A stretch of DNA of 64,000 nucleotides from Streptomyces sp. NBC_01275 (GTDB taxonomy: Bacteria > Actinomycetota > Actinomycetes > Streptomycetales > Streptomycetaceae): NCBI RefSeq assembly GCF_026340655.1, contig NZ_JAPEOZ010000001.1, forward strand, positions 2,604,001 to 2,668,000, in the 5' to 3' direction. A program made the translations under genes and the position numbers. Every line of letters begins with the position of its first letter. Within the stretch, counting starts at the first letter, position 1. The notes below the pieces were generated by a model. It made no database searches. It saw only the letters and a list, made by a program, of their open reading frames with translations, and had not been told where the DNA came from. Positions 13,509 to 58,355 of this stretch are shown in pieces.

Positions 13509-27257
<13,749 letters not shown>

Positions 27258-27382: not shown

Positions 27383-30300
27383 GTGGCCACTGATGAGAAG
27401 CTTCGTGACTATCTGAAGCGGACCCTTGTCGAACTCAGGCAGGCCCGCACCCGGTTGGAGGAGGCCGAGGCCCGGCGGCAGGAGCCGATCGCCATCGTGG
27501 GGATGGCCTGCCGGCTGCCCGGCGGCGTCGCCTCCCCCGAGGACCTGTGGACGCTCCTGACGGAGGGCCGCGACGCCGTGACCGGTCTCCCCGAGGACCG
27601 GGGCTGGGACGTCGACGGTCTCTACGACCCCGACCCCGACCACCACGGCACCAGTTACACCCGTGAAGGCGGTTTCCTGGCGGACGCCGGCGGATTCGAC
27701 GCCGACTTCTTCGGCATCTCGCCCCGCGAGGCGCTGTCCCTCAACCCGCAGCAACGGCATCTGCTGGAGCTGTCCTGGGAGGCCGTCGAGCGGGCGGGCA
27801 TCGACCCGACGGCCCTGCACGGCAGCCGGACCGGGGTGTTCACCGGGGTCATGTACCACGACTACGCCCCGTCGCTGCGGGAGGCGCCCCGCGACCTCGA
27901 GGGGCTGCTGAGCATCGGCGACTCGGGCAGCGCGGCGTCCGGCCGGGTGTCGTACACCCTGGGTCTCGAAGGGCCCGCGGTCACCGTGGAGACCGCCTGT
28001 TCCTCGTCGTTGGTGGCGCTGCATCTGGCGGTGCAGTCGCTGCGCTCCGGCGAGTGCGATCTGGCGCTGGCCGGCGGTGCGGCCGTGATGGGCACGCCGG
28101 ACGCGATGGTGCACTTCGCGCGGCAGCGGGGGCTGTCCCCCGACGGCCGCAGCAAGGCCTTCGCGGCGGCGGCGGACGGTACGGGCTGGTCCGAGGGCGT
28201 CACCGTCATCCTCGTCGAGCGGCTGTCCGACGCCCGCCGCAACGGCCACACCGTCCTCGCCACCGTCCGTGGCACGGCCGTCAACCAGGACGGCGCGTCC
28301 AACGGCCTCACCGCACCCAACGGCCCCTCCCAGCAGCGCGTCATCCGCCAGGCCCTCGCCAACGCCGGGCTCGACGTCCAGGACGTCGACCTCGTCGAGG
28401 CCCACGGCACGGGCACCAGGCTCGGCGACCCGATCGAGGCCCAGGCGGTCATCAACACCTACGGCAAGGGCCGGGACCCCGAACGACCGCTCTGGCTCGG
28501 CTCCCTCAAGTCCAACATCGGCCACACCCAGGCCGCCGCAGGACTGGCCGGCGTCATCAAGACCGTCCTCGCCCTACGCCACCGGACCATGCCCCAGACC
28601 CTCCACGTCGACGCACCCACCCCCCACGTCGACTGGTCCGCCGGCACCGTCCGACTCCTCACCGAACCCCGCCCCTGGAACGACCCCGGCCGCCCCCGCC
28701 GAGCCGCCGTCTCCGCCTTCGGCGCGACGGGCACCAACGCCCACGTGGTCATCGAAGAGACGTTCACAGAAACGGAGTCGGCGTCCCCCCGGCAGGAACC
28801 GCCGTCGACCGCACTCGTGCCCTGGGTGCTGTCCGCGAAGACCCCGACCGCCCTGTCGACGACGGCCCGTCGGCTCCACGACCACGTCACCGGCAACCCC
28901 GACACGGCCGTGGCGGACGTCGCCGGATCGCTGCTGCGGCGCTCCGCTCTCGACCACCGCGCCGTCGTCCTCGGTGCCGACCGCTCCGAACTCCTGTCGG
29001 AGCTCGCGGCGTTGGCCGACGCAAGGCAGACCGCCGACATGACGACGGGACGGGCGACGACAGGCCGACTCGCCTTCGCGTTCGCCGGGCAGGGCAGCCA
29101 ACGGCTGGGCATGGGACGCGAGTTGTACCGGGAACTCCCCGCGTTCGCGGCGGCCTTCGACGAGATCTGCGCGGAACTGGACCGGCATCTCGCCCCCCAC
29201 CGGGATCCGCATGCGAACACCCCGCTGCGGGACGTCGTGTTCGCCGAACCGGGCACCCCGGCCGCGGAGTCGCTCGACGCCACCGCCTACACCCAGCCCG
29301 CGCTGTTCGCCCTGGAGGTCGCGCTCGCCCGGGTCCTCGGCACATGGGGCGTACGGCCGGACCTGCTGGTCGGGCACTCGATCGGGGAGATCGCCGCGGC
29401 GCACGTCGCGGGGGTGTTCTCGCTGCCGGACGCGGCCCTGCTGGTCGCCGCCCGGGGCCGGTTGATGCAGGCGCTGCCCGCCACGGGCGCGATGGTGGCC
29501 GTCGCGGCGCCGGAGGAGGCGGTGCTGCCGCTGCTGGCGGGGCATGAGTCCGAGGTCTCGATCGCCGCCGTGAACGGCCCCGAGTCGGTCGTGCTCTCCG
29601 GCGACGAGGAGACGGTGCTCGCCCTCGCCGAACGGCTGCGCGCGCAGGGCCGGCGCACCAAACGGCTCGTCGTCAGCCATGCCTTCCACTCGCCCCACAT
29701 CGACGCGATGCTCGAGGAGTTCGGCCGTACCGCGGCACGACTCGCCTACCACGCGCCCACGGTGCCGCTGGTCTCCGACGTCACCGGCGCCCTGGCCGAC
29801 CCGGCCGAACTCGCCACGCCCGCCTACTGGGTACGGCACGCCCGCGCCGCCGTCCGGTTCGCCACCGCCGTACGCACACTCCAGGCCGAGGGCGTGACCA
29901 CGGTCCTGGAGATCGGCTACGGCGACACCCTGACCGCCCTCGTACGGGAGACCGCCGACGCGGTGGACGCCGGGGGCTCGCTGGACGCGGTGCCCGCGCT
30001 CGCCCGGCGGCGGCCCGAGACGCGGTCGCTGCTCGGGGCGGTCGCCCGGCTGCACACCCGGGGCCACGCCGTCGACTGGGCGGCCGTACTCCCGGCGACC
30101 GGCGCCCTCGAACCGCTCCCGCCGCTCCCGCCGCTCCCCCCTTACCCCTTCGAGCACCGGCGCTTCTGGGTGGAGCCGGTGCGCACGGCCGGCCTCGACG
30201 TGCTCGGGGTCGGCTCGACCGGGCATCCGCTGCTCGGGGCGTCGATCGCGCTGCCGGGGTCCGGGGGCGTGGTGTTCGCGCAGCGGATCTCGGTGAAGGA

Positions 30301-33113: not shown

Positions 33114-36100
33114 ATGGACACGCATGACAGCGCCGTCGTCGAGGCCCTGCGCGCTTCCCTGCTCGAGAACGAGCGGCTGAGGAAGGAGATCGAGGCCGCG
33201 GCCGACAGCGCACGCGAGCCGATCGCCATCGTGGGCATGGCCTGCCGGCTGCCCGGCGGGGTCCGCTCCCCCGAGGACCTGTGGACGCTCCTGGCGGAGG
33301 GCCGGGACGCCGTGACCGGTTTCCCCGAGGACCGGGGCTGGGACGTCGAGGCGCTCTACGACCCCGACCCGGACGCCCGCGGCAGGAGCTACACCCGTGA
33401 GGGCGGTTTCCTGCACGACGCGGGCGAGTTCGACGCCCGTTTCTTCGGCATCTCGCCCCGCGAGGCCCTGGCGATGGACCCGCAGCAGCGGCTGTTCCTG
33501 GAGGCGGCGTGGGAGGTGCTGGAACGCGCCGGGGTCGACGCGGCCGGGCTGCGCGGCAGCCGCACCGGGGTGTTCGCGGGCGTCATGTACCACGACTACG
33601 GCACCGGGCTCGCGCAGGTGCCGCAGGAGGTGGAGGGCTTCCAGGGCGCGGGCGTGGCGGGCAGCCTCGTCTCCGGCCGGGTCTCCTACCACCTGGGCCT
33701 GGAGGGCCCGTCGGTGACCGTCGACACGGCCTGCTCCTCCTCCCTGGTGGCGCTGCACCTGGCCGCCCAGTCGCTGCGGTCGGGCGAGTGCGACCTGGCG
33801 CTGGCGGGCGGGGTGGCGGTGATGGCCACGCCGAGCACGTTCGTGGAGTTCTCGCGGCAGCGCGGGCTGTCCCCCGACGGGCGGTGCAAGGCGTTCGCGG
33901 CCGGCGCGGACGGCACCGGCTGGTCCGAGGGCATGTCGTTGCTCCTGCTGGAGAGGCTCTCCGACGCCCGGCGCAACAACCATCCGGTGCTGGCCACGGT
34001 CCGCGGCAGCGCGGTGAACTCCGACGGCGCGTCCAACGGCCTGACCGCCCCCAACGGCCCCTCCCAGGAGCGGGTCATCCGCCAGGCGCTCGCCGCCGCC
34101 CGGCTGTCCCCGGCCGACGTCGACCTCGTCGAGGGCCACGGCACCGGCACCCGGCTCGGCGACCCGATCGAGGCGCAGGCCGTGCTCAACGCCTACGGCC
34201 GAGGCCGGGACGCCGACCGGCCGCTGTGGCTGGGCTCGCTCAAGTCCAACATCGGCCACGCCCAGGCCGCCGCCGGGGTCGCGGGCGTCATCAAGGCGGT
34301 CCTGGCCCTGCACCACGGCGTACTGCCGCAGACCCTCCACGTCGACGAGCCCACCCCGCACGTGGACTGGTCGGCGGGCACGGTACGGCTGCTGCGCGAG
34401 GCCCGCCCCTGGCCTACGACGGCGGGGCCCCGCCGGGCCGGGGTCTCGGCGTTCGGAGTGAGCGGCACGAACGCCCACGTCATCGTGGAGCAGGCCCCGC
34501 AGGCCCCGCAGCCCACCACCGCCACCAGCCCCTCCCCCGCCGCTGTCGGTGGGCACGTCGTCCCCTGGGTGCTGTCCGCCCGTACGCCGACGGCCCTGGC
34601 CGCGCAGGCGGACCGGCTGGCCGCGCACGCCGAGGCGCACCCGGAGCTGGACGCGGCGGCGCTCGGCCGGGCGCTGGCGACCACCAGGACGGCGATGGAG
34701 CACCGCGCGGTGCTGATCGGCGCCGATCGGGACGAACTGCTCGACGGGGCCCGCAGGTTGGCGGCGGGCGAGTCGTCGCCGCTGGTCGTGACCGGCCGGG
34801 TCGCCGACGGGCAACTGGCCTTCCTCTTCTCGGGCCAGGGCAGTCAGCGCGTCGGCATGGGCCGTGAACTGCACGCCCGGCACCCGGAGTTCGCCGAGGT
34901 GTTCGACGTGGTGTGCGCGGAGCTGGACCCCCGGCTGGCGCGCCCCCTGCGCGAGGTCGTCTTCGCGGAACCCGGCTCGGCTCGGGCGAGGCTGCTGGAA
35001 CGTACCGAGTTCACCCAGCCGGCTCTCTTCGCCTTCGAGGTGGCGCTGTTCCGGCTGTTGGCCTCCTGGGGCGTCGAACCCGACCTGGTGGCCGGGCACT
35101 CGGTCGGCGAGATCGCCGCCGCGCACGTCGCCGGGGTGCTCTCGCTGGGCGACGCCGCCGCTCTGGTCGCTGCCCGGGCCAGGCTCATGCAGGCCCTGGC
35201 GGCCCCCGGGGCGATGGTCGCGGTGCGCGCCGACGAGGAGGAGATCGCCACGCTGCTGTCCGGGCACGAGCACGAGGTGAGCGTCGCCGCCGTCAACGGC
35301 CCCTCGTCGCTGGTGCTTTCCGGCGCCCGGGAGAAGGTCCTGGAGATCGCCGACGGACTGCGCGCCGCCGGCCGCCGCACCAAACGCCTCCAGGTCTCGC
35401 ACGCGTTCCACTCCCCGCTGATGGACCCCATGCGGGAGGAGTTCGCGCGGGCGGCGCGCGGACTGACGTACGCCGCGCCGCGGATCCCCGTGGTCTCCAA
35501 CGTCACCGGCCGGCTCGCCGAGGGCGACGACCTGGTGACCGCCGAGTACTGGGTACGGCAGGTGCGGGCCACCGTCCGCTTCCGGGACACCCTGCGGACC
35601 CTCGACGCCGAAGGCGTGCGCACCTTCCTCGAGGTCGGACCCGGCGACACGCTCACCGCGATGGTCCACGAGAACGTCGCCGGCGCCGTCGAGGCGGTGC
35701 CCTCGGTGCGCCGCGACGCGGACGAGCCGCTGTCGGTGCGCGGGGCGCTGGCCGCGCTCCATGTCCGCGGCCGCTCCCTCGCCGTGCCTCCGCACCCCCG
35801 CCACGTGCCCCTGCCCACCTACCCCTTCGAACGCAAGCGTTACTGGCTGGAGAGGACCGTCGTGCCGCAGAACAACACCGCCGAGACCATTCAGGCCGTC
35901 GAGGAACAGGAGCCGCAGCCCCTCGCGGAACAGGCGGAAGCCGAACGGTCGCTGGTGGAACGGCTGGCCGAACGCCCCGCCGAGGAGCGCCGCAAGGAAC
36001 TGATCGCCCTTGTCATCGAGTTGGCCGCGGCCGCGCTGAGCCACGAGAACACCGACGAGTTCGACGAGGACACCGGTTTCTTCGACCTCGGCTTCAGCTC

Positions 36101-51188: not shown

Positions 51189-51488
51189 GGAATCCGTACT
51201 ACCGACCTGTCCGAGTCCGGCTCAGATGCCGACCCGGTCCTGATCGGCGCCCACGGCAAGCCCCAGGGCGTCCTGCTGTCCGTCGAGGCCTTCGAAGCAC
51301 TGAGCGGCCGAGCGGCACGACGTGCGGCCGTCGCCTCGGCCACCGGCTCCGTCGAGGCCGAGGGGCTCCGCGCCTCCGAGGCCTCCGACCGCGACACCGA
51401 GGCGTACGTAAAGGGCGACCTCGACGCGGACACCCTGGTCGCCCGCGCGATCCGCCACCGACAGACTTCGGAGCGTCGGACAGGGTGA
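51189..51488 (+). pseudogene. Remnant of a Phd/prevent-host-death type antitoxin
   Basis: An open stretch ending at TGA 51486-51488 reads ADPVLIGAHGKPQGVLLSVE then AFEALSGRA, followed by a charged alanine-rich tail, as in Phd/YefM-type antitoxins. No ATG, GTG or TTG lies at a sensible place ahead of the conserved part, and the usual N-terminal DNA-binding segment is missing. I read it as an N-terminally deleted antitoxin gene. Its stop overlaps the GTG of the broken fic gene (GTGA at 51485-51488), the coupling expected of a former toxin-antitoxin operon. Confidence 0.65.
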
Positions 51489-51880
51489 ACGATCCGTACG
51501 CCATGCCCAACGGCGTGCTGCGCAACAAGCTCGGCATCACCGACCACCAGCGGCTCGCGGCAGCGGAGGCCGACATCACCCGGGCGCGCCTCGCCATGCT
51601 CGCCGAACGCCCTACGCCGGAGAGGTCTTCGGACGTCGCACCTCCTCCGCTCACCTGCGGGATCTCCCCCGGCAGGAATTCGTCATCCGACTGGCCGAGC
51701 CGCACGGCGACATGAACGTCCTCCACCCGTTCCGCGAGGGCAACGGCCGTGCCCAGCGGGCATTCCCGGCCCAACCCGGCCACGACGCGGGATACGACCT
51801 GAGCTGGTCGGGCATGGACCCTCAGCGCAACGAGGACGCCTCGGTGAAGAGCTTCCTCGGCGACAACAGCCTGTCGGAGT
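51485..51880 (+). pseudogene. Broken Fic/Doc-family toxin gene
   Basis: The first part (GTG 51485) encodes VNDPYAMPNGVLRNKLGITD and AAAEADITRARLAMLAERP, the usual N-terminus of actinobacterial Fic proteins. After about 51612 the similarity continues in a different frame: YAGEVFG, HLRDLPRQEFVIRLAEPHGD, then the Fic active-site motif HPFREGNGRAQRAF at about 51725-51767. The roughly 45 residues that normally separate these parts are absent, and the join shifts frame, so an internal deletion has inactivated the gene. Intact family members transfer AMP to target proteins. The 3' limit is approximate; the second frame runs on past the YefM promoter. Confidence 0.75.
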
Positions 51881-51937: not shown

Positions 51938-51959
51938 AGTCTGGGAGAGGATGTGCGTC

Positions 51960-52232
51960 ATGGCCCTCACCGCAAGCGAGGCGCGCAGGGACCTTTTCCC
52001 CCTGATCAAGAAGGTCAACGACGACCACGCGCCCGTACGCATCCACTCCAAGAACGGCGACGCCATACTCATGTCCGCAGAGGACTACGACGCCTGGCAG
52101 GAGACCGTCTACCTCCTACGCTCCCCGGCCAACGCTCGCCGCCTCATGGAAGCCGTCGCCCGCGACCGTGCTGGCCAGACAGGGATCACGAAGACCCTGG
52201 AGGAGCTCCAGGAACTGGCCGGTGAGGAGTGA
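51960..52232 (+). CDS. yefM: YefM-family antitoxin
   Basis: 90 aa. The Phd/YefM fold is recognisable: [20 protein letters not shown], then [31 protein letters not shown]. It neutralises YoeB with its C-terminal tail and represses its own promoter through the N-terminal half. ATG 51960 is chosen because GGAGAGG lies nine bases upstream and the protein then begins like other family members; ATG 51951 is too close to that site. The stop overlaps the yoeB start (GTGA), giving coupled synthesis with the antitoxin first. Confidence 0.92.
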
Positions 52233-52492
52233 GGGAAGTCAACTTCGACCCGGCCGACTGGGACGACTTCCAGCACTGGCTGGAGACCGACCGCAAGATG
52301 GTGCGCCGCGTCGTTCGCCTCATCGGCGAAATCCAGCGCGACCCGTTCAACGGCATCGGCAAGCCCGAACCGCTCAAGGGAGACCTGTCCGGCTACTGGT
52401 CGCGACGCATCGACGACGAACACCGCCTCGTCTACCGAGCCGACGACAAACAGGTCAAGATCCTCAAGGCTCGGTACCACTACACGGACTGA
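52229..52492 (+). CDS. yoeB: YoeB-family mRNA interferase toxin
   Basis: 87 aa, the normal size. YoeB cuts mRNA in the ribosomal A site when free of YefM. The catalytic residues known from E. coli YoeB (Glu46, Arg65, His83) match Glu47, Arg66 and His84 here, in [25 protein letters not shown] and ARYHYTD. The GTG start overlaps the yefM stop and has GAGG just upstream. The module looks intact and active, next to a decayed Phd/Fic pair. Confidence 0.93.
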
Positions 52493-52602: not shown

Positions 52603-52629
52603 GGCAGACGAGTCGGGCTGTACGCCGGG
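52603..52629 (+). repeat. Left attachment-like site: 27-bp copy of the rnpB 3' end
   Basis: A perfect 27-bp direct repeat of 57948-57974, which is the 3' end of rnpB plus a few bases. Similarity stops abruptly on both sides. Only this short piece of rnpB is present. This is the pattern left when a site-specific element inserts into the 3' end of an RNA gene and duplicates the core site, so I read it as one att end. Confidence 0.8.
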
Positions 52630-52682
52630 GAGAGCTACCGCAACGCTATGACCTGCGCAAACGCGCAGGGAGGGCGCTTCTG

Positions 52683-52699
52683 TGGCTACCTTGATGGCT
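52683..52699 (+). repeat. Putative arm-type site near the left end
   Basis: TGGCTACCTT-GA-TGGCT. The same motif, differing at the two middle bases, occurs in the same orientation at 57817-57833 near the right end. Each is a pair of TGGCT half-repeats at 12-bp spacing. Confidence 0.45.
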
Positions 52700-52712
52700 G
52701 CGTGAGGAGAAC

Positions 52713-52743
52713 GCCCCCGCCCCGGAGCGGCCCGGACGGGGGC
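52713..52743. terminator. Hairpin terminator downstream of the 117-aa protein gene
   Basis: GCCCCCG (52713-52719) and CGGGGGC (52737-52743) pair, with CCCGG/CCGGG bases extending the stem inward. GAGAACG and CGTTCTC flank it as an outer stem. It lies 17 bp past the stop of the minus-strand gene ending at 52761 and should terminate that transcript. Confidence 0.75.
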
Positions 52744-52760
52744 TTCGCCGTTCTCAGGGT

Positions 52761-53114
52761 TCAGACGGTCTGCTCGATGCGCTCGAAGATGTCCGAGTCA
52801 GTCTCCTGCTGCCAGGTCGGCAGGTCGGCCCAGTCGGCGACGTATCCGGGCTTCGGGTCCTCGAAATGCTTGAACATCTGGGCGGTCCAGCAGATCGCGA
52901 CGAAGCGGCCCTTCTGCTCGCGGGTGAGCCGTGTGGCGTGCCCTTCGCTGATCCTGATGAAGTCGCGCACCTGTCCGTATACGGCAGCGGCAGCCTCGCG
53001 CTCCCACTCGGGCGTCTCGCCCCACGGAGTGACGTAGCCGGGCTTCGGCTCACCGGGGTAGTGCTTGTTCACACCGGCGATCCACGCCTCGCGGAAGATC
53101 CGACCGTCACTCAT
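52761..53114 (-). CDS. Uncharacterised 117-aa protein with two internal repeats
   Basis: I do not recognise this family. The protein is acidic, soluble and rich in Trp and aromatic residues, with no signal peptide. It contains two imperfect copies of KPGYVxxWxxxPxWxxE (around residues 23-39 and 88-104), separated by a central segment (VRDFIRISEGHATRLTREQK). ATG 53114 has GAGGG about nine bases upstream. It lies 16 bp after the XRE regulator gene on the same strand, so the two are probably one transcript divergent from the graspetide operon. Possible roles are partner of the regulator or an accessory factor for the peptide; nothing in the sequence decides this. Confidence 0.75.
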   Translation of the reverse strand: MSDGRIFREAWIAGVNKHYPGEPKPGYVTPWGETPEWEREAAAAVYGQVRDFIRISEGHATRLTREQKGRFVAICWTAQMFKHFEDPKPGYVADWADLPTWQQETDSDIFERIEQTV

Positions 53115-53130
53115 GCACGTGTCCCTCTCG

Positions 53131-54384
53131 TCATGCGGTGCGCGAAAGCGCCGCGATTCGGTGATCCACATCCGAGACTCGACCATCGGACATGAGCGGG
53201 GCAAGACGCCCTCGAAGTCCGTCCAGCTTCTTGCCGACGAATCCCGAGTTCGACCGGTCGGCCAGGCCAAGCACTGCCTCCGCGTACTGCACGACCTGAT
53301 CGACGTCACCCCGGTGGGCCCCGAGGACGGCAAGGTCGCTCAGTACGGCGGCGCGACGGCGCAGGGACAGCGGTTGGGCGAGGGCTGCGGTGAGGGCGTC
53401 TTCCGCGAGGTCGGGACGGCCGAGCTGGAGGTAGCAGGCCCCTCGTTCCTCGGGGAGGCGGGAACCGTCGAAGCGGAGCCAGCCGCCGTTGTGGGAGTGG
53501 CCGTCGAGGGAGTGCACCTTCTCGGCTTCGTCGAGGGCCCGGGCGCAGCCGTCGATGTCGCCCATGGCCGCGCACACCTGGGCCTGGACGGCGGCGACCC
53601 AGTGGCGGGTGGACAGTGCGCTGTCGCCCCGCCGGGCGATCCGGGAGGCCACCGCCAGCAGGGGCTGGGCAGCGGGCGCGCGGCGCGCGTACAGCTCGAC
53701 GTAGGCGTGGCGGGTCATGGCACAGGCCCAGAGGTCGTGGTCACCACCAGCATGGGCGGCGTTGGCAGCCAGCGTGTAGCACTGGGCGGCGTCGGTGTAC
53801 CGGTTGGCGTCGAAGAAGAGTTCGCCGACGAGCTGGTAGAGGTCGGCCGTCATCGTGCACAGCCGGGCCCGGTCCGCTGCGGTACGCGCCTCGGCCAGGC
53901 CCTTCGTCAGGACGTCGAGCTGCTTGCGGACCGCCGGGAAGACGGTCGGCTTGGAGTCCGAGAGGGTGAAGACCTGCCACAGGCTGCGGTGCAGCTCCTC
54001 ACCTGTCTCCAGGAGCGCGGCCACCGTGTGTCCTCGGGGGGCCTCGTCCGAACCGGGCAGGGTGACCAGCGCGCCCGTGACGGCGAGCAGGCCCAGGACA
54101 TCGCGGCGCTTCATATCGTCATCATCACCGTGGAGGAGGGGTGGGGTGTCAGGAAGCACGGCGGTTTCGGCCGGCTGTTCTTCGAAGAGAAGCTCTTCCA
54201 GCTCGGAGAGGGTGGCTCCTAACAGGCTGGCGATCTTGGGCCGTTGGTGCGGTTGTGGGGTGGCACGGCCACTTTCCCAACGGACCACGGTGGACGCGGC
54301 CACCGTAAGCGCTTCTGCGAATTCCTCCTGAGAGTAACCCTTTGCCACCCGCCGCTCGGCAAAGCGCCTGCGCCTTAAAGCCAT
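53131..54384 (-). CDS. XRE-family regulator with C-terminal TPR-like domain
   Basis: 417 aa. N-terminal helix-turn-helix: RRVAKGYSQEEFAEALTVAA and STVVRWESGRATPQ (residues about 12-46). The rest is helical with TPR-like units (DLYQLVGELFFDANRYTDAA, HWVAAVQAQVCAAMGD, CYLQLGRPDLAEDALTAALA), as in actinomycete regulators that sense small ligands or peptides through a TPR domain. ATG 54384 has GAGGGGAG about five bases upstream, excluding the longer frame. It is divergent from tgmA, a gene order often seen beside this type of graspetide operon, so it probably controls the operon. Confidence 0.88.
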   Translation of the reverse strand: MALRRRRFAERRVAKGYSQEEFAEALTVAASTVVRWESGRATPQPHQRPKIASLLGATLSELEELLFEEQPAETAVLPDTPPLLHGDDDDMKRRDVLGLLAVTGALVTLPGSDEAPRGHTVAALLETGEELHRSLWQVFTLSDSKPTVFPAVRKQLDVLTKGLAEARTAADRARLCTMTADLYQLVGELFFDANRYTDAAQCYTLAANAAHAGGDHDLWACAMTRHAYVELYARRAPAAQPLLAVASRIARRGDSALSTRHWVAAVQAQVCAAMGDIDGCARALDEAEKVHSLDGHSHNGGWLRFDGSRLPEERGACYLQLGRPDLAEDALTAALAQPLSLRRRAAVLSDLAVLGAHRGDVDQVVQYAEAVLGLADRSNSGFVGKKLDGLRGRLAPLMSDGRVSDVDHRIAALSRTA

Positions 54385-55033
54385 TGGACTCCCCTCACGA
54401 AGAGCACCTTCCTCACTGGCAACACCCGACGCCCGGAAAACGCCTGGGCAATGCGCGGGGTCCGCTCTGGGAGACGGTAACGGATCGTCGTTCACTGGTC
54501 ACACGCCGCTCGGAGGTTGAAGGACCCTCCGGGCGGCTCCCCTGAGGCAGCGGGCCGCGCGCCCCGTCCCGTCCAGGCTGCGTCCAGCTGCTGCCCCGTC
54601 AGAGAGGAGCGACCGCGTGACAACCTCCGAACTGCCCCGCAGGAACCCTGGCGCCAACGGCCGTACGTACACGCTGCCGGAGCCCCAACCGGGTCGCCGA
54701 GCCGGGCTCTGCGGGTACGGGCGGCCAGCGGCTGGGAGAAGTTCATGCGCCGCAGCGAGACGCGGCAGGAGACGGAGACGTGAACCCGGTCGGGCCTGAG
54801 GCGGTGTCCACGGATCGCCGTCCGCACCGTGCAGGCGCGGGCGGAGAGCAGTGCCGGATCTCTCCCCCACTCCCAGCTCAGGGAGGGCCAGGAGGAGAAC
54901 AGCCAGCTCTGCCCCCCCGTAGGGGCAGACGTTCAAGCCCCGCTCACCCCTAATCAGGCCCTTGCCTGCGGGGACGTCCCGCGTCTGGGTGAGCGGCTTC
55001 CTGCACCACTCCACCTTCAACCCAAGGAGTCCC
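54385..55033. promoter_or_regulatory. 649-bp divergent region between XRE regulator and tgmA
   Basis: This should contain the promoters of both transcripts. The only candidate gene is the short frame at 54617-54799. The DNA between 54780 and 55020 is densely open in several frames but none has a good start and ribosome site. I see no clear palindromic operator and no convincing -35/-10 pair. Confidence 0.5.
54617..54799 (+). CDS. Possible small protein upstream of tgmA
   Basis: 60 codons from a GTG that has AGAGGAG eight bases upstream, a good ribosome site. The first 28 residues (VTTSELPRRNPGANGRTYTL, then PEPQPGRR) look like real coding. After that the frame turns into an Arg/Ala-rich tail typical of a wrong frame, while a neighbouring frame gives a more natural ending (ASGWEKFMRRSETRQETET, stop at 54783). 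It may be a frameshifted small gene or a sequencing error. Family unknown. Confidence 0.35.
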   Translation: MTTSELPRRNPGANGRTYTLPEPQPGRRAGLCGYGRPAAGRSSCAAARRGRRRRREPGRA

Positions 55034-55294
55034 ATGACCGCCTCCGTCGCACTCCCCGCCCCCACGCGGCCGTGGGGTGTGGGCCGACTCGCGCCCTACC
55101 CGACGACCATCCGCCGGCCCCACGCCACGGTCGCCATCGACCCCACCACGCAGCTCGGGGTGTTCCGTGACCGCACCGGCCAGGTGGTCGAGATGGGCAA
55201 GCACGGCACCAGCTCCGGAACCGAGACCTCCACGACGACGAACTCGGACTCCAAGAACGATCAGGGTCACGATCAGGACAGCAGCCAGGACTGA
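55034..55294 (+). CDS. tgmA: Graspetide precursor peptide (TgmA-type ATP-grasp-modified RiPP)
   Basis: 86 aa. The leader part contains PYPTTIRRPH, ATVAIDPTTQLGVFRDRTGQ and VVEMGKHGT, matching the conserved leader of actinomycete ATP-grasp-modified precursors. The C-terminal 30 residues are the likely core. Its first half is rich in Thr/Ser (GTSSGTETSTTTNS) and its second half in Asp (DSKNDQGHDQDSSQD), which suits ester bonds from Thr/Ser hydroxyls to acidic side chains made by the ligase. ATG 55034 has AAGGAG about four bases upstream, fixing the start. The stop overlaps the tgmB ATG (TGATG), giving a coupled operon. Confidence 0.88.
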   Translation: MTASVALPAPTRPWGVGRLAPYPTTIRRPHATVAIDPTTQLGVFRDRTGQVVEMGKHGTSSGTETSTTTNSDSKNDQGHDQDSSQD

Positions 55295-56259
55295 TGACCA
55301 GGACCGAGGAGAGGCCGGTTCTGGTGGCCACCGAGGCGGACGACATCACCGCCGACATGGTGATCACCGAGCTCAACTGGCGCGATGTGCCGGTGGTCCG
55401 GTTCAACCTCGCCGACATCGGCGAGGGCCTCACGGTCTCGGCTCGGTTCGGCACCTGCCCGGCCCCTGTGGTCGGGCAGGTGCGCACCCCGTCGAGAACC
55501 GCCGACCTGGCCCGCGTCCGATCGGTGTACTGGCGCCGCCCGGAGTGGCCGTCGTTCCCCCACCTGTCCCCGGACGACTCCCGTTTCGCGGCGGCGCAGG
55601 TCCGCTACGGGCTCGGGGGCACGCTCTACGCCTTGGGCGACCCGCTCTGGGTCAACCACGCGTTACGCATCGCCGCGGCCGACTACAAACCCGCTCAGCT
55701 CACCCTCGCCCAGCGACTCGGCTTCACCGTCCCGCCCACCCTCGTCACCAACGACCCCGCCGAGGCACGCGAGTTCATTCGCGCTCAAGGAGACGCGATC
55801 TTCAAGACGCTGCGGTGGACCCCGTACACGCGCGACGGCGTGCCGGTGACCGGTTGGGCCGCCCCCGTCACCGCCGACGAGATCGACGACAGCGTTCGCA
55901 TCGCCCCGCACCTGTTCCAGGCCCGCGTGGACAAGGTCGCCGACCTCCGCGTCCTGATCGTGGGCCGGCACACCTTCGCCGTACGCATCGACTCCGAACT
56001 GCTGGACTGGCGCAAGGACTACAGCGTCCTGACGTACACCGTCGAACACCTCCCCGACAGCGTGGACAAGGCACTGCACGTCTACCTGGACCGCCTGGAA
56101 CTGGTATCGGGGAGCTTCGACCTCGCGGTGGACCGGGCGGGGGTCTACTGGTGGCTGGAGCTGAACCCCAACGGGCAGTGGGGATGGCTGGAGAAGGAGA
56201 CCGGCCTCCCGATGTCCGCCGCCTTCGCCGACCTACTCATGCAAGGAGACCGCCGATGA
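55294..56259 (+). CDS. tgmB: Graspetide synthetase, ATP-grasp ligase (TgmB type)
   Basis: 321 aa, the size of MvdC/MvdD/TgmB ligases. They phosphorylate acidic side chains of the precursor and join them to Thr/Ser (esters) or Lys (amides) to make multicyclic peptides. Visible features: N-terminal pre-ATP-grasp domain (VLVATEADDITADMVITELN, VYWRRPEWP), central ATP-grasp region (AIFKTLRWTPYTRDG, LRVLIVGRHTFAVRID), and the metal-binding end WWLELNPNGQWGWLEKETG near residue 288. It overlaps tgmA by TGATG and the methyltransferase gene by ATGA. Confidence 0.93.
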   Translation: MTRTEERPVLVATEADDITADMVITELNWRDVPVVRFNLADIGEGLTVSARFGTCPAPVVGQVRTPSRTADLARVRSVYWRRPEWPSFPHLSPDDSRFAAAQVRYGLGGTLYALGDPLWVNHALRIAAADYKPAQLTLAQRLGFTVPPTLVTNDPAEAREFIRAQGDAIFKTLRWTPYTRDGVPVTGWAAPVTADEIDDSVRIAPHLFQARVDKVADLRVLIVGRHTFAVRIDSELLDWRKDYSVLTYTVEHLPDSVDKALHVYLDRLELVSGSFDLAVDRAGVYWWLELNPNGQWGWLEKETGLPMSAAFADLLMQGDRR

Positions 56260-57419
56260 CCGACCCGGCATCCGAGCGGCGCCGCATGGCGGCCGTGCTC
56301 GCGAACAAGGGCGTCCTGAAGTCCCCCTGGCTGCGCGGGGCCGTCGAGACCATCCCCCGCGAGCGGTTCCTCCATCCTGGAGTCTTCCTCGACGAGGGGC
56401 GGACCTGGCGGCCCGTCACCGCCCTCGGCACCGCCCCGGACGAGTGGCTGAAGATCGCGTACAGCGTCGACACCCTCACCACCCAGCTCAACGGCAACCT
56501 CACCGCCGACCGGGCCGGCGAACCCGTCGTGGGCGTGCCCACGTCGTCCTCGACCGACCCGACCACCGTCATCCGCATGATCGAGGCCCTGGACCTCACG
56601 GCGGGACACCGCGTCCTGGAGATCGGCACGGGCACCGGCTATTCCACAGCCCTGATGTGCCACTACCTCGGCGAGGACAACGTCACCACGGTCGAGGTCG
56701 ACCCGCAGGTGGCGGCACGCGCCGATGCCGCCCTGGAATCCGTCGGCCACTCGACGTGGACGGTGACGGGCGACGGGCTTCTCGGCCATCCGCACCGGGC
56801 ACCATACGACCGGGTCATCGCCACCTGCGCGGTGCGTCGCATCCCGTACACATGGGTCCGGCAGACGAAGCCCGGTGGCATCGTCCTCAGCACGGTCGGC
56901 TCCTGGCCCTGGGGAACTGGTCTCGCAAAGGTCACCGTTGGCGATAACGGCACCGCCGAGGGCGCGATCATCGCACGCTCCTCCTTCATGCAGGCGCGGT
57001 CCCAGACAGTGACGCCCTTGGCCGGCGACCTCTCTGCCCGCACCGCCTACGCGGACAGTAAGCGGCCCGCGCTGGTGTCTCCCCTCGTCCTGGAGGAGTG
57101 GATGCCCGCGTTCCTCGCGCAGCTCGCCGCACCCGGTGCGCAGTTCGTCCGCGCCGCCCGCAGCGACGGCTCGCCCTTGCGGTACCTGTTCGATCCGGAG
57201 CGGGAGTCGTTCGTCGAGTTCATCTCCGACGGCGAGAGCTGGACCGTCCGCCAGGGCGGCCCCGTGGCTCTGTGGGACGACATCGAACGCTCCCTTGTCG
57301 CCTGGCAGGACGCCGGGGCTCCGGACATCGATGCGGTGCGACTCCGCGTCACCGACCAGTCCCACGTGTACTGGATCGACGACTGCCCTTCGCTGCGCTT
57401 GGAACACCGGCTCGCCTGA
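56256..57419 (+). CDS. PIMT-like O-methyltransferase of the graspetide operon
   Basis: 387 aa. The SAM-binding motif I is VLEIGTGTGYSTAL (residues 120-133), followed by TVEVDPQVAARADAAL and DRVIATCAVRRIPYTW. The fold is that of protein L-isoaspartyl methyltransferases, with an extra C-terminal domain of about 150 residues. In fuscimiditide-type systems a related enzyme methylates an Asp side chain in the cyclised peptide, which then collapses to an aspartimide. The Asp-rich core of the precursor here fits that chemistry. The start overlaps the tgmB stop (ATGA). A general repair enzyme is unlikely given this tight coupling. Confidence 0.9.
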   Translation: MTDPASERRRMAAVLANKGVLKSPWLRGAVETIPRERFLHPGVFLDEGRTWRPVTALGTAPDEWLKIAYSVDTLTTQLNGNLTADRAGEPVVGVPTSSSTDPTTVIRMIEALDLTAGHRVLEIGTGTGYSTALMCHYLGEDNVTTVEVDPQVAARADAALESVGHSTWTVTGDGLLGHPHRAPYDRVIATCAVRRIPYTWVRQTKPGGIVLSTVGSWPWGTGLAKVTVGDNGTAEGAIIARSSFMQARSQTVTPLAGDLSARTAYADSKRPALVSPLVLEEWMPAFLAQLAAPGAQFVRAARSDGSPLRYLFDPERESFVEFISDGESWTVRQGGPVALWDDIERSLVAWQDAGAPDIDAVRLRVTDQSHVYWIDDCPSLRLEHRLA

Positions 57420-57465
57420 ACCGCTACCCTCCGAGGGAGCCGCCCCCCAGCCCGTAGGAAGCACG

Positions 57466-57762
57466 ATGGACGACGAACCGCTCTCCGAATGGGTCAAGCG
57501 CCGTGACATGAAGAGGGGACAGCTCCGCGCGGCCCCTCTCGTCCCTGGCAAAGGCCTGCAGGGGGCGCATCTGAATCCTGACGCACCCCGCGTGATCGAG
57601 CGATGGAACGGGCACATCTGGGAGTTCTACGGCTTCGCGGTGAACCTCGCCGAGGCACAGCGCATCCTGTACCCCGATAACAAGGTCGCCCCAGCCTCGG
57701 GAGCGGCGCCGAAGCTCGGTCCCGGAACCGGCAGGCACCGGAAGCCTCAGGCCCCGCGATAG
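57466..57762 (+). CDS. Small basic protein, probably DUF6087 family
   Basis: 98 aa. It starts MDDEPLSEWVKRRDMKRGQL and contains AHLNPDAPRVIERWNGHIWE and FYGFAVNLAEAQRILYP. I associate this pattern with the Streptomyces DUF6087 family, whose function is unknown. ATG 57466 has AGGAAG about five bases upstream. It is the last gene of the graspetide operon, 46 bp after the methyltransferase, and could be an accessory or immunity factor or a passenger. No membrane segment or signal peptide is present. Confidence 0.75.
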   Translation: MDDEPLSEWVKRRDMKRGQLRAAPLVPGKGLQGAHLNPDAPRVIERWNGHIWEFYGFAVNLAEAQRILYPDNKVAPASGAAPKLGPGTGRHRKPQAPR

Positions 57763-57816
57763 TCCCGGTAACGAGCTTCATCCGCAATCCAGAAAGATCC
57801 CCGACGCCACGAGGCA

Positions 57817-57833
57817 TGGCTACCTTCGTGGCT
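57817..57833 (+). repeat. Putative arm-type site near the right end
   Basis: TGGCTACCTT-CG-TGGCT, matching 52683-52699 except for the two central bases. It overlaps by two bases the 12-bp palindrome CTACGTACGTAG (57832-57843). Non-coding as far as I can tell. Confidence 0.45.
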
Positions 57834-57909
57834 ACGTACGTAGTCGCACGGTCCCGTTTGAACCGGTGCGGACCAGGGTCCAGCGAGACCCGCCCATACA
57901 TGAAAAAAG

Positions 57910-57939
57910 CCTCTGACCTGCGTTTCTATTGGTCAGAAG
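57910..57939 (-). terminator. Rho-independent terminator of rnpB
   Basis: On the minus strand a 9-bp stem (CTTCTGACC with GGTCAGAGG, one G-U pair) and 12-base loop are followed by CTTTTTTC (57903-57909). It lies 14 bp past the mature 3' end of rnpB. It is one of the few classical T-run terminators in the window. Confidence 0.9.
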
Positions 57940-57947
57940 CCCTGAGG

Positions 57948-57974
57948 GGCAGACGAGTCGGGCTGTACGCCGGG
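57948..57974 (+). repeat. Right attachment-like site: rnpB 3' end
   Basis: Second copy of the 27-bp perfect repeat at 52603-52629. It covers the last about 22 bases of the functional rnpB gene plus 5 bases beyond, so insertion here leaves rnpB complete. Confidence 0.8.
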
Positions 57975-58355
57975 TTCTGTCGCCCGTCCGCCTCGCGGCG
58001 GCCGGGGAGACGGCCATCCATCTAGGGCCGGCGTTGCCGCCGGCCTCGTGCGGTCTACCCGCGGACTCGGGCGGGCAGCCCTCGAACGTCCGCGCAGAGC
58101 CGCTTTTCACGGCGGCTCCTTTTGACCTTGCTCCGGGTGGGGTTTACCTAGCTGCCCAGGTCGCCCTGGGCACTGGTGGTCTCTTACACCACCGTTTCAC
58201 CCTTACCCGACGCCTGAGCGCCGGGCGGTCTGTTTTCTGTGGCACTGTCCCGCGGGTCACCCCGGGTGGCCGTTAGCCATCACCCTGCCCTGTGGAGCCC
58301 GGACGTTCCTCGGGAAGCCCCCTAAGGGACTCCACGCGGCCGTCCGCCCGGCTCG
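57953..58355 (-). ncRNA. rnpB: RNase P RNA, bacterial type A
   Basis: About 403 nt. Universal elements are visible on the minus strand: GAGGAACGTCCGGGCTCC (P4 and neighbouring core, 58294-58311), CCACAGAAAACAGACC near 58230-58243, AGGGTGAAACGGTGGTGTAA (about 58184-58203), GCTAGGTAAACCCC near 58143-58152, and the closing P4 partner and AGACCGCACGAG region. The 5' (CGAGCCGGGCGGACGG) and 3' (CCGACTCG) ends pair as P1. It is the catalytic RNA that removes tRNA 5' leaders. The 5' end overlaps the last 27 codons of the EamA gene on the same strand; a TACCAT hexamer near 58370 could be its -10. Ends are estimated to a few bases. Confidence 0.96.

Follow-up and report, generated by a model that had tools for sequence, protein, structure and literature searches.

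How does a peptide operon come to lie between two copies of the end of an essential RNA gene, with no recombinase gene beside it? This question is raised by a 5.3-kb block (positions 52603-57974) in a 64,000-nucleotide stretch of the Streptomyces sp. NBC_01275 genome (contig NZ_JAPEOZ010000001.1, positions 2,604,001 to 2,668,000), referred to here as the window. The block carries a graspetide operon and adjoins rnpB, the gene of the RNase P RNA. It is probably a non-autonomous element of the cis-mobilizable type that is recombined in trans by the integrase of a temperate phage and that brings its own terminator for rnpB.

The attachment core at rnpB

An initial annotation, made from the letters of the window, had described a perfect 27-bp direct repeat of the rnpB 3' end on both sides of the block. 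The two copies, at 52603-52629 (left core, attL side) and 57948-57974 (right core, attR side), were indeed identical, in the same orientation and 5345 bp apart. rnpB is complete at 57950-58355 on the minus strand (Rfam RF00010, E 1.1e-92, 286.7 bits, full model). The right core is its 3' end, and the left core is a perfect copy of that end by sequence identity. With up to 2 mismatches, these are the only two sites in the whole 10.4-Mb genome. The 27-mer (at most 1 mismatch) was present in 270 of 392 genomes of the genus, the window's own counted, and a control with the reversed pattern gave 0 throughout. Therefore, the repeat is not due to chance. At least two cores on the same strand were counted by hand in 55 of the 392 genomes, some copies lying on different contigs of draft assemblies. 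Among the matches listed, same-contig pairs were spaced from 1.4 kb (genome G033) to 128 kb (G318), leaving aside widely separated copies, for example in G386. This distribution shows that the rnpB 3' end is a busy integration hotspot in Streptomyces. No paper saying so was found among the viewed part of the matches from open-licence PMC searches, and the rnpB mentions in the accessible parts of PMC8776855, PMC2705793 and PMC4524478 refer to a promoter or to a phylogenetic marker.

The block was also said to hold no recombinase gene, and profile searches agreed. Its six genes gave no match to a recombinase family among the Pfam/NCBIfam profiles; five fitted other families and the sixth fitted none. 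Elsewhere in the window genome, PF00589 (Phage_integrase) had 13 matches, none nearer than about 0.4 Mb to the block.

Conserved arms and prophage-type relatives

Beyond the core, both ends hold 100-130 nt of conserved interior sequence. Alignments to the arms of other elements placed the left arm at 52630-52735, with the motif GTGGCTACCTTGATGGCTGC at 52682-52701, and the right arm at 57816-57947, with the motif ATGGCTACCTTCGTGGCTAC at 57816-57835. The pattern RTGGCTACNTTNNTGGCTRC has one copy per end (52682 and 57816) and no other in the window; 0 were expected in 100 shuffles, a figure that flatters the pattern since it was drawn after both sites had been seen. It recurs with few changes in the aligned arms of other elements. 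The left arm was 76-89% identical to left arms in G129, G282, G108, G274, G178, G066, G091, G224, G263, G133, G374 and G075, and matched four further places over 56-67 nt (76-89%). Against left ends of the prophage type, the identity was 81% for G318, 83% for G035 and 79% for G085 (97-101 nt, core included). The 211-base right end matched 254 of the 392 genomes at E <= 1e-5; in most of them, only the core was matched. The right arm proper, defined by a match starting at or before query base 98, was counted by hand in 35 genomes including the window's own. Its identity in the other 34 was 70-84%, and most of these matches, core included, span about 150-180 nt. A search for a further arm left of 52603 in the window returned short, weak matches only.

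Larger integrase-bearing elements at the same site, for which a search had been suggested in the initial annotation, were found with the same arms. The 128-kb element of G318 has homologues of both window arms. In G035 the cores are 132 kb apart, identical to each other and with 2 differences each from the window core, and both arms are matched. G085 has a right end with an integrase and a left-type end on two separate contigs. An intact tyrosine integrase reading frame adjoins the right arm of G035. Relatives at 74-100% identity, itself included, occur in five of the 392 genomes (G035, G085, G318, G007 and G311; E <= 1e-30), and all five genes lie 0.26-0.61 kb from a copy of the right arm. 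If kinship is ignored, five genomes drawn at random would all belong to the 35 with the arm with a probability of 4e-6. Matches of 28-32% identity in G334, G069 and G159 were left out of the close relatives. The prophage-type relatives in G311 (L188) and G007 (L186) have the right arm and a different core; they sit elsewhere than at rnpB, because their core is another sequence. G007 contains in addition a two-core rnpB interval of 30 kb, in which the right arm is matched and the left arm matches over 34 nt only.

The proteins encoded by the G318 element include portal, major head, tape measure and tail proteins, an endolysin and a single-stranded DNA-binding protein. The scan covered ten proteins, of which one had no match and one matched a family of unknown function. 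A 61-aa protein adjoining its integrase matched HTH_17 with a score under the curated cut-off. The 128-kb interval may hold more than one element, as it includes a core-like site with 5 mismatches. Ten IMG/VR contigs carry an integrase of the G035 type (74-80% identity); the left arm gave one match of ~20 nt in these contigs, whose records may not reach that end. The right arm had no match in named phages, and the nearest integrases of named phages were 23-26% identical.

The right arm also contains a hairpin with a six-U run at its 3' foot (57906-57943, minus strand; fold -18.7 kcal/mol), directly behind the end of rnpB. Judging from its fold, it likely serves as a terminator for rnpB, brought by the element. 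Its z value was -2.3, with 5 of 200 shuffles as good, and that of the hairpin in the G035 arm was -4.3. The left flank of the element in strain NRRL F-6492, taken for the displaced native rnpB downstream region, has a hairpin too, not clearly above shuffles (z -1.1).

Elements without an integrase and the empty site

Integration at the rnpB 3' end without an own recombinase was borne out by the genome comparisons. It had been called unusual, and proved instead to be common. PF00589 had no match inside the two-core intervals (cores at <=2 mismatches) of 11 genomes (G133, G155, G172, G009, G325, G274, G377, G129, G193, G091 and G015). PF00239, searched in eight two-core intervals, was matched for G325 only, weakly within the interval and once more immediately outside it. 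Thirteen integrase-less elements were compared with 123 crude open reading frames (ORFs) from the G318 element: 12 gave no match and G129 a single one of 46 aa. Four other integrase-bearing elements, partly fetched, had 27-43. The cargo of the integrase-less group differs from element to element, with a VbhA-Fic pair in G108 and a LuxR-AAA protein in G091. The G178 element carries a PglX-like type IIG enzyme and an HEC-01A-like ATPase.

Two more two-core rnpB elements, both free of window-type arms, were noted. One of 6.9 kb in G058 (L156 4588-11472) holds a reversed tgmAB-methyltransferase cassette, and one of 5.9 kb in G244 (L193 808-6751) holds TetR and MarR regulators. In G178 and G066, the same core adjoins a second type of tyrosine integrase (L083 1706-3008, L084 18250-19552), frame-split in both. 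Serine-recombinase matches flank the right core copy inside and outside in G325 (G325:C1:2146387-2147884) and represent a third kind of recombinase. No rnpB match was obtained at the G066 core at 6924862.

The initial annotation had expected genomes lacking the operon to show one core and an empty site joining the sequence left of 52603 to rnpB. An empty site, exact to the nucleotide, was found for the element type; none was found for the left flank of the window itself. In S. achromogenes, a graspetide element (L219 7337-12879) lies between rnpB and a distant graspetide cassette that ends in a right arm. In G181 and G020, that distant tgmAB-methyltransferase cassette (38-49% identity), with a matching right arm, is joined directly to rnpB through the one core seen. 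The sequence to the left of the element in S. achromogenes was 90.7% identical to G181 over 2181 bp and 89.5% identical to G020 over 2590 bp; the G020 core has one mismatch. Across the joined flanks, 637 of 693 positions were identical in G020, with 68 gap columns, and 502 of 563 in G181, where the 187 gap columns arise because its stretch was shorter. Two cores can also occur in genomes without the operon, since other elements are hosted there.

The reading of the DNA left of 52603 as native chromosome was dropped, since this DNA includes a Fic-type fragment with counterparts in other genomes that sit within two-core rnpB elements. This fragment (51201-51880, translated motif HPFREGNGR) matches Fic genes inside other rnpB elements in two pieces, at 91-93% and 87-90%, with bases missing between them; its own frame had no Pfam match. 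The match lies inside two-core elements of G129, G091, G108, G263 and G282, with a Fic gene in G108, and relatives in G024, G107, G226 and G082 are 0.1-1.2 kb from rnpB. The fragment is likely the remains of an older neighbour element, and the flank probably does not represent the native DNA downstream of rnpB. An intact-looking YefM-YoeB toxin-antitoxin pair occupies 51951-52492, directly left of the left core, and a piece of such a pair is inverted beside a core in G239.

Probable spread of the graspetide cassette

A TgmB search of named genomes gave 26 loci, and rnpB was in the same locus for 13 of them. At TgmB identities of at least 87%, eight of nine loci were near rnpB and the ninth, CoH27, retains a piece of the left arm. 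Outside these named genomes, many tgmB relatives of 75-86% identity were elsewhere (for example in G167, G160, G185, G092, G202 and G082). At E <= 1e-6, no relative of the two integrase types turned up in any of the 26 loci. With the window and G015 included, there were 15 loci with a cassette adjacent to rnpB, in some cases a broken one. Ten of the 15 have two compact flanking cores with <=3 mismatches (the right core of S. inhibens carries a small insertion), and these compact elements measure 4.8 to 6.1 kb.

Between the window and S. inhibens, the cassette is 93.6% identical in nucleotides, the RNB gene to the right of rnpB 73.1% and rnpB 81.3%. Among 45 pairs of the 10 loci that have RNB, the identity of the cassette exceeded that of RNB by 20.5, 17.8 and 17.1 points for the pairs among the window, S. 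inhibens and ISL-10, and by no more than 11.0 in the other 42. Such comparisons strongly suggest horizontal spread of the cassette, and transfer is the probable origin of the window and S. inhibens copies. An apparent conflict between the cassette and flank trees was considered and dropped, as the trees differ in depth and not in their main split. The case for transfer is therefore one of depth rather than topology.

Proposed mechanism and rival explanations

We propose that the element consists of two complete temperate-phage-type attachment ends and, as cargo, a 'graspimiditide'-type graspetide operon with a protein isoaspartyl methyltransferase (PIMT) homologue, with nothing recognisable for mobility. 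A tyrosine integrase, perhaps together with the neighbouring 61-aa helix-turn-helix protein, would be supplied by a related prophage of ~130 kb or by an infecting phage. It would bind the motifs in both arms and recombine the 27-bp cores, so that the block is excised as a circle or inserted into the rnpB 3' end. Upon insertion, the 27 bp would restore rnpB and the right arm would bring a replacement terminator, rnpB then reading into the terminator of the element. Repeated insertion at the regenerated site would produce tandem arrays. The action of a G035/G318-type integrase on the window block, its continued excision and the route of its DNA between cells are what we infer from the ends. More tentatively, and with some leaning against it, the block may be one of a family that combines phage attachment arms with passenger genes, holds no mobility genes and is spread through Streptomyces by the integrases, perhaps also the particles, of the ~130-kb prophages at the rnpB site. 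The passengers of such a family would be graspetides, toxin-antitoxin pairs and restriction or defence genes.

Several observations weigh against mobilization by a phage integrase. The window arms diverge by 17-28% from the prophage arms, and a search of the window genome at E <= 1e-30 found nothing related to the integrase of the matching prophages. In other genomes, this core has other recombinases next to it, of the second tyrosine type and the serine type. Mobility is what the ends suggest, and not an observed excision or transfer. The left core (<=5 mismatches) is absent from 4 of the 15 loci (SKN60, ISL-10, S. hydrogenans and WELS2), ISL-10 retaining its first 16 bases. The cassette of CC208A is inverted in a 10.7-kb two-core interval, several cassette copies have broken genes and S. 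inhibens has no recognisable right arm. Missing left cores, inversion and broken genes fit remnants as well as living elements. The argument for spread draws on rnpB and one flanking gene, and the cassette and flank trees do not conflict in topology, both separating the window, S. inhibens and ISL-10 from the other shared rows, in the flank tree from the other seven.

These observations give some weight to a fixed remnant, in which a prophage or island that once had a graspetide operon next to attL has been stripped of all its other parts, the rest being inherited vertically and now immobile. This is unlikely, and yet it accounts for the lost left cores and frameshifted cassettes of several genomes, for tgmB-like fragments adjoining attL in G108, G263, G091 and A3M-1-3, and for a left-flank synteny common to several cassette-bearing genomes. 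Because the trees do not conflict in the topology of their main split, our confidence in the mobile element was slightly lowered and that in the remnant raised. However, the cassette DNA is much closer than rnpB or RNB among the window, S. inhibens and ISL-10, 12 of the 13 integrase-less elements share the prophage ends and no called gene, and the S. achromogenes insertion lies between a different element and rnpB. Another possibility, which we regard as improbable, is that a recombinase of the G066/G178 tyrosine or G325 serine type inserted the block and that the likeness to the G035/G318 arms is old and irrelevant. Such genes do adjoin the same core in G066, G178 and G325. Nevertheless, the DNA on their core side, where examined, is unlike the window arms beyond the core, whereas both window arms match the G318 and G035 elements.

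Streptomyces exchange chromosomal DNA, and rnpB is common to all of them. Homologous recombination through the shared rnpB region, with no integrase, would be another route for the cassette. It is very improbable, since the S. inhibens match begins at the left core, rnpB itself is just 81% identical there and compact paired cores (<=3 mismatches) flank 10 of the 15 cassettes. The reading as an element with its own rnpB terminator, on which the integrase of a temperate phage acts in trans, remains the preferred one.

Comparison with known systems

According to the available part of PMC5704250, cis-mobilizable elements (CIMEs) are remnants of integrative and conjugative elements (ICEs) or integrative and mobilizable elements (IMEs) that keep attL and attR, lack integration and transfer genes, and accrete in tandem at one gene. 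The block resembles them in all three features: cores and both arms are present, with a function predicted from sequence; five of its six genes belong to other families and the sixth resembles no Pfam/NCBIfam model; and tandem occurrence at one gene is seen. An ICE or IME origin is not indicated, as the arms match phage-type elements, a comparison beyond which no search for ICE genes went. The block further differs from CIMEs in that its compact form is present in many species, with a signal of transfer, and that its cargo encodes a ribosomally synthesised and post-translationally modified peptide (RiPP). In the accessible text of PMC3146451, 15 Dehalococcoides genomic islands at ssrA have no integration module and are called possible cis-mobilizable elements. 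They likewise sit at an essential RNA gene; this gene is ssrA rather than rnpB, the recombinases are serine recombinases, and that part of the text draws no phage link (PMC3146451).

Phage satellites, namely phage-inducible chromosomal islands (PICIs), phage-inducible chromosomal minimalist islands (PICMIs) and Mulch and Flayer of Streptomyces, are alike in being small and phage-dependent, as far as the accessible parts of their descriptions go. To our knowledge, the described satellites encode integrase or packaging functions. Neither was recognised in the window block by Pfam/NCBIfam profiles or the comparison with the G318 ORFs. Clusters of attC sites lacking integrases (CALINs) and miniature inverted-repeat transposable elements (MITEs) are also recombination sites without an enzyme that are moved in trans, in the available part of PMC11389934; they belong to integron and transposon systems. 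The Streptomyces prophage Samy differs in its repeat and has an integrase of the serine type, according to the part of PMC11302927 at hand.

If the proposal is true, it would account for the spread of small peptide and defence operons in Streptomyces without mobility genes, which searches led by integrases overlook. The 27-bp rnpB end with two arms would be a simple signature to list such cargo across the genus, and would point to likely helper prophages. Trans-mobilization would thereby be open to direct testing.

Gene content and other features

The gene content given in the initial annotation agreed with the Pfam/NCBIfam matches. On the minus strand lie a conserved actinobacterial protein of 117 aa (52761-53114) and an XRE regulator of the NsdA family with a TPR-like part (53131-54384; NF053720, 159 bits, cut-off 75). 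The 117-aa protein has 1548 homologues at E <= 0.001, no Pfam/NCBIfam match at E <= 0.001 and no PADLOC match at E <= 1e-5, and was assigned to no family. The plus strand carries tgmA, the graspetide precursor (55034-55294; TIGR04186, PF14408), tgmB, the ATP-grasp peptide ligase (55294-56259; TIGR04187, 421.6 bits, cut-off 350), the PIMT-type methyltransferase of graspetide systems (56256-57419; TIGR04188, 497.8 bits, cut-off 380) and a DUF6087 protein (57466-57762; PF19565, 110 bits).

A precursor, an ATP-grasp enzyme and a PIMT homologue are common to the group 13 graspetides or graspimiditides, such as fuscimiditide, amycolimiditide and albusimiditide, in the available parts of PMC13001092 and PMC10787088. 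The window block has all three. The product of the class has Thr-Asp ester links and an aspartimide, and the block is assigned to this class from its genes. In contrast to those operons, the window operon stands in a probably mobile context.

Three Rfam ASpks matches lie elsewhere in the window, at 34170-34244, 17700-17774 and 28436-28510, all on the minus strand.

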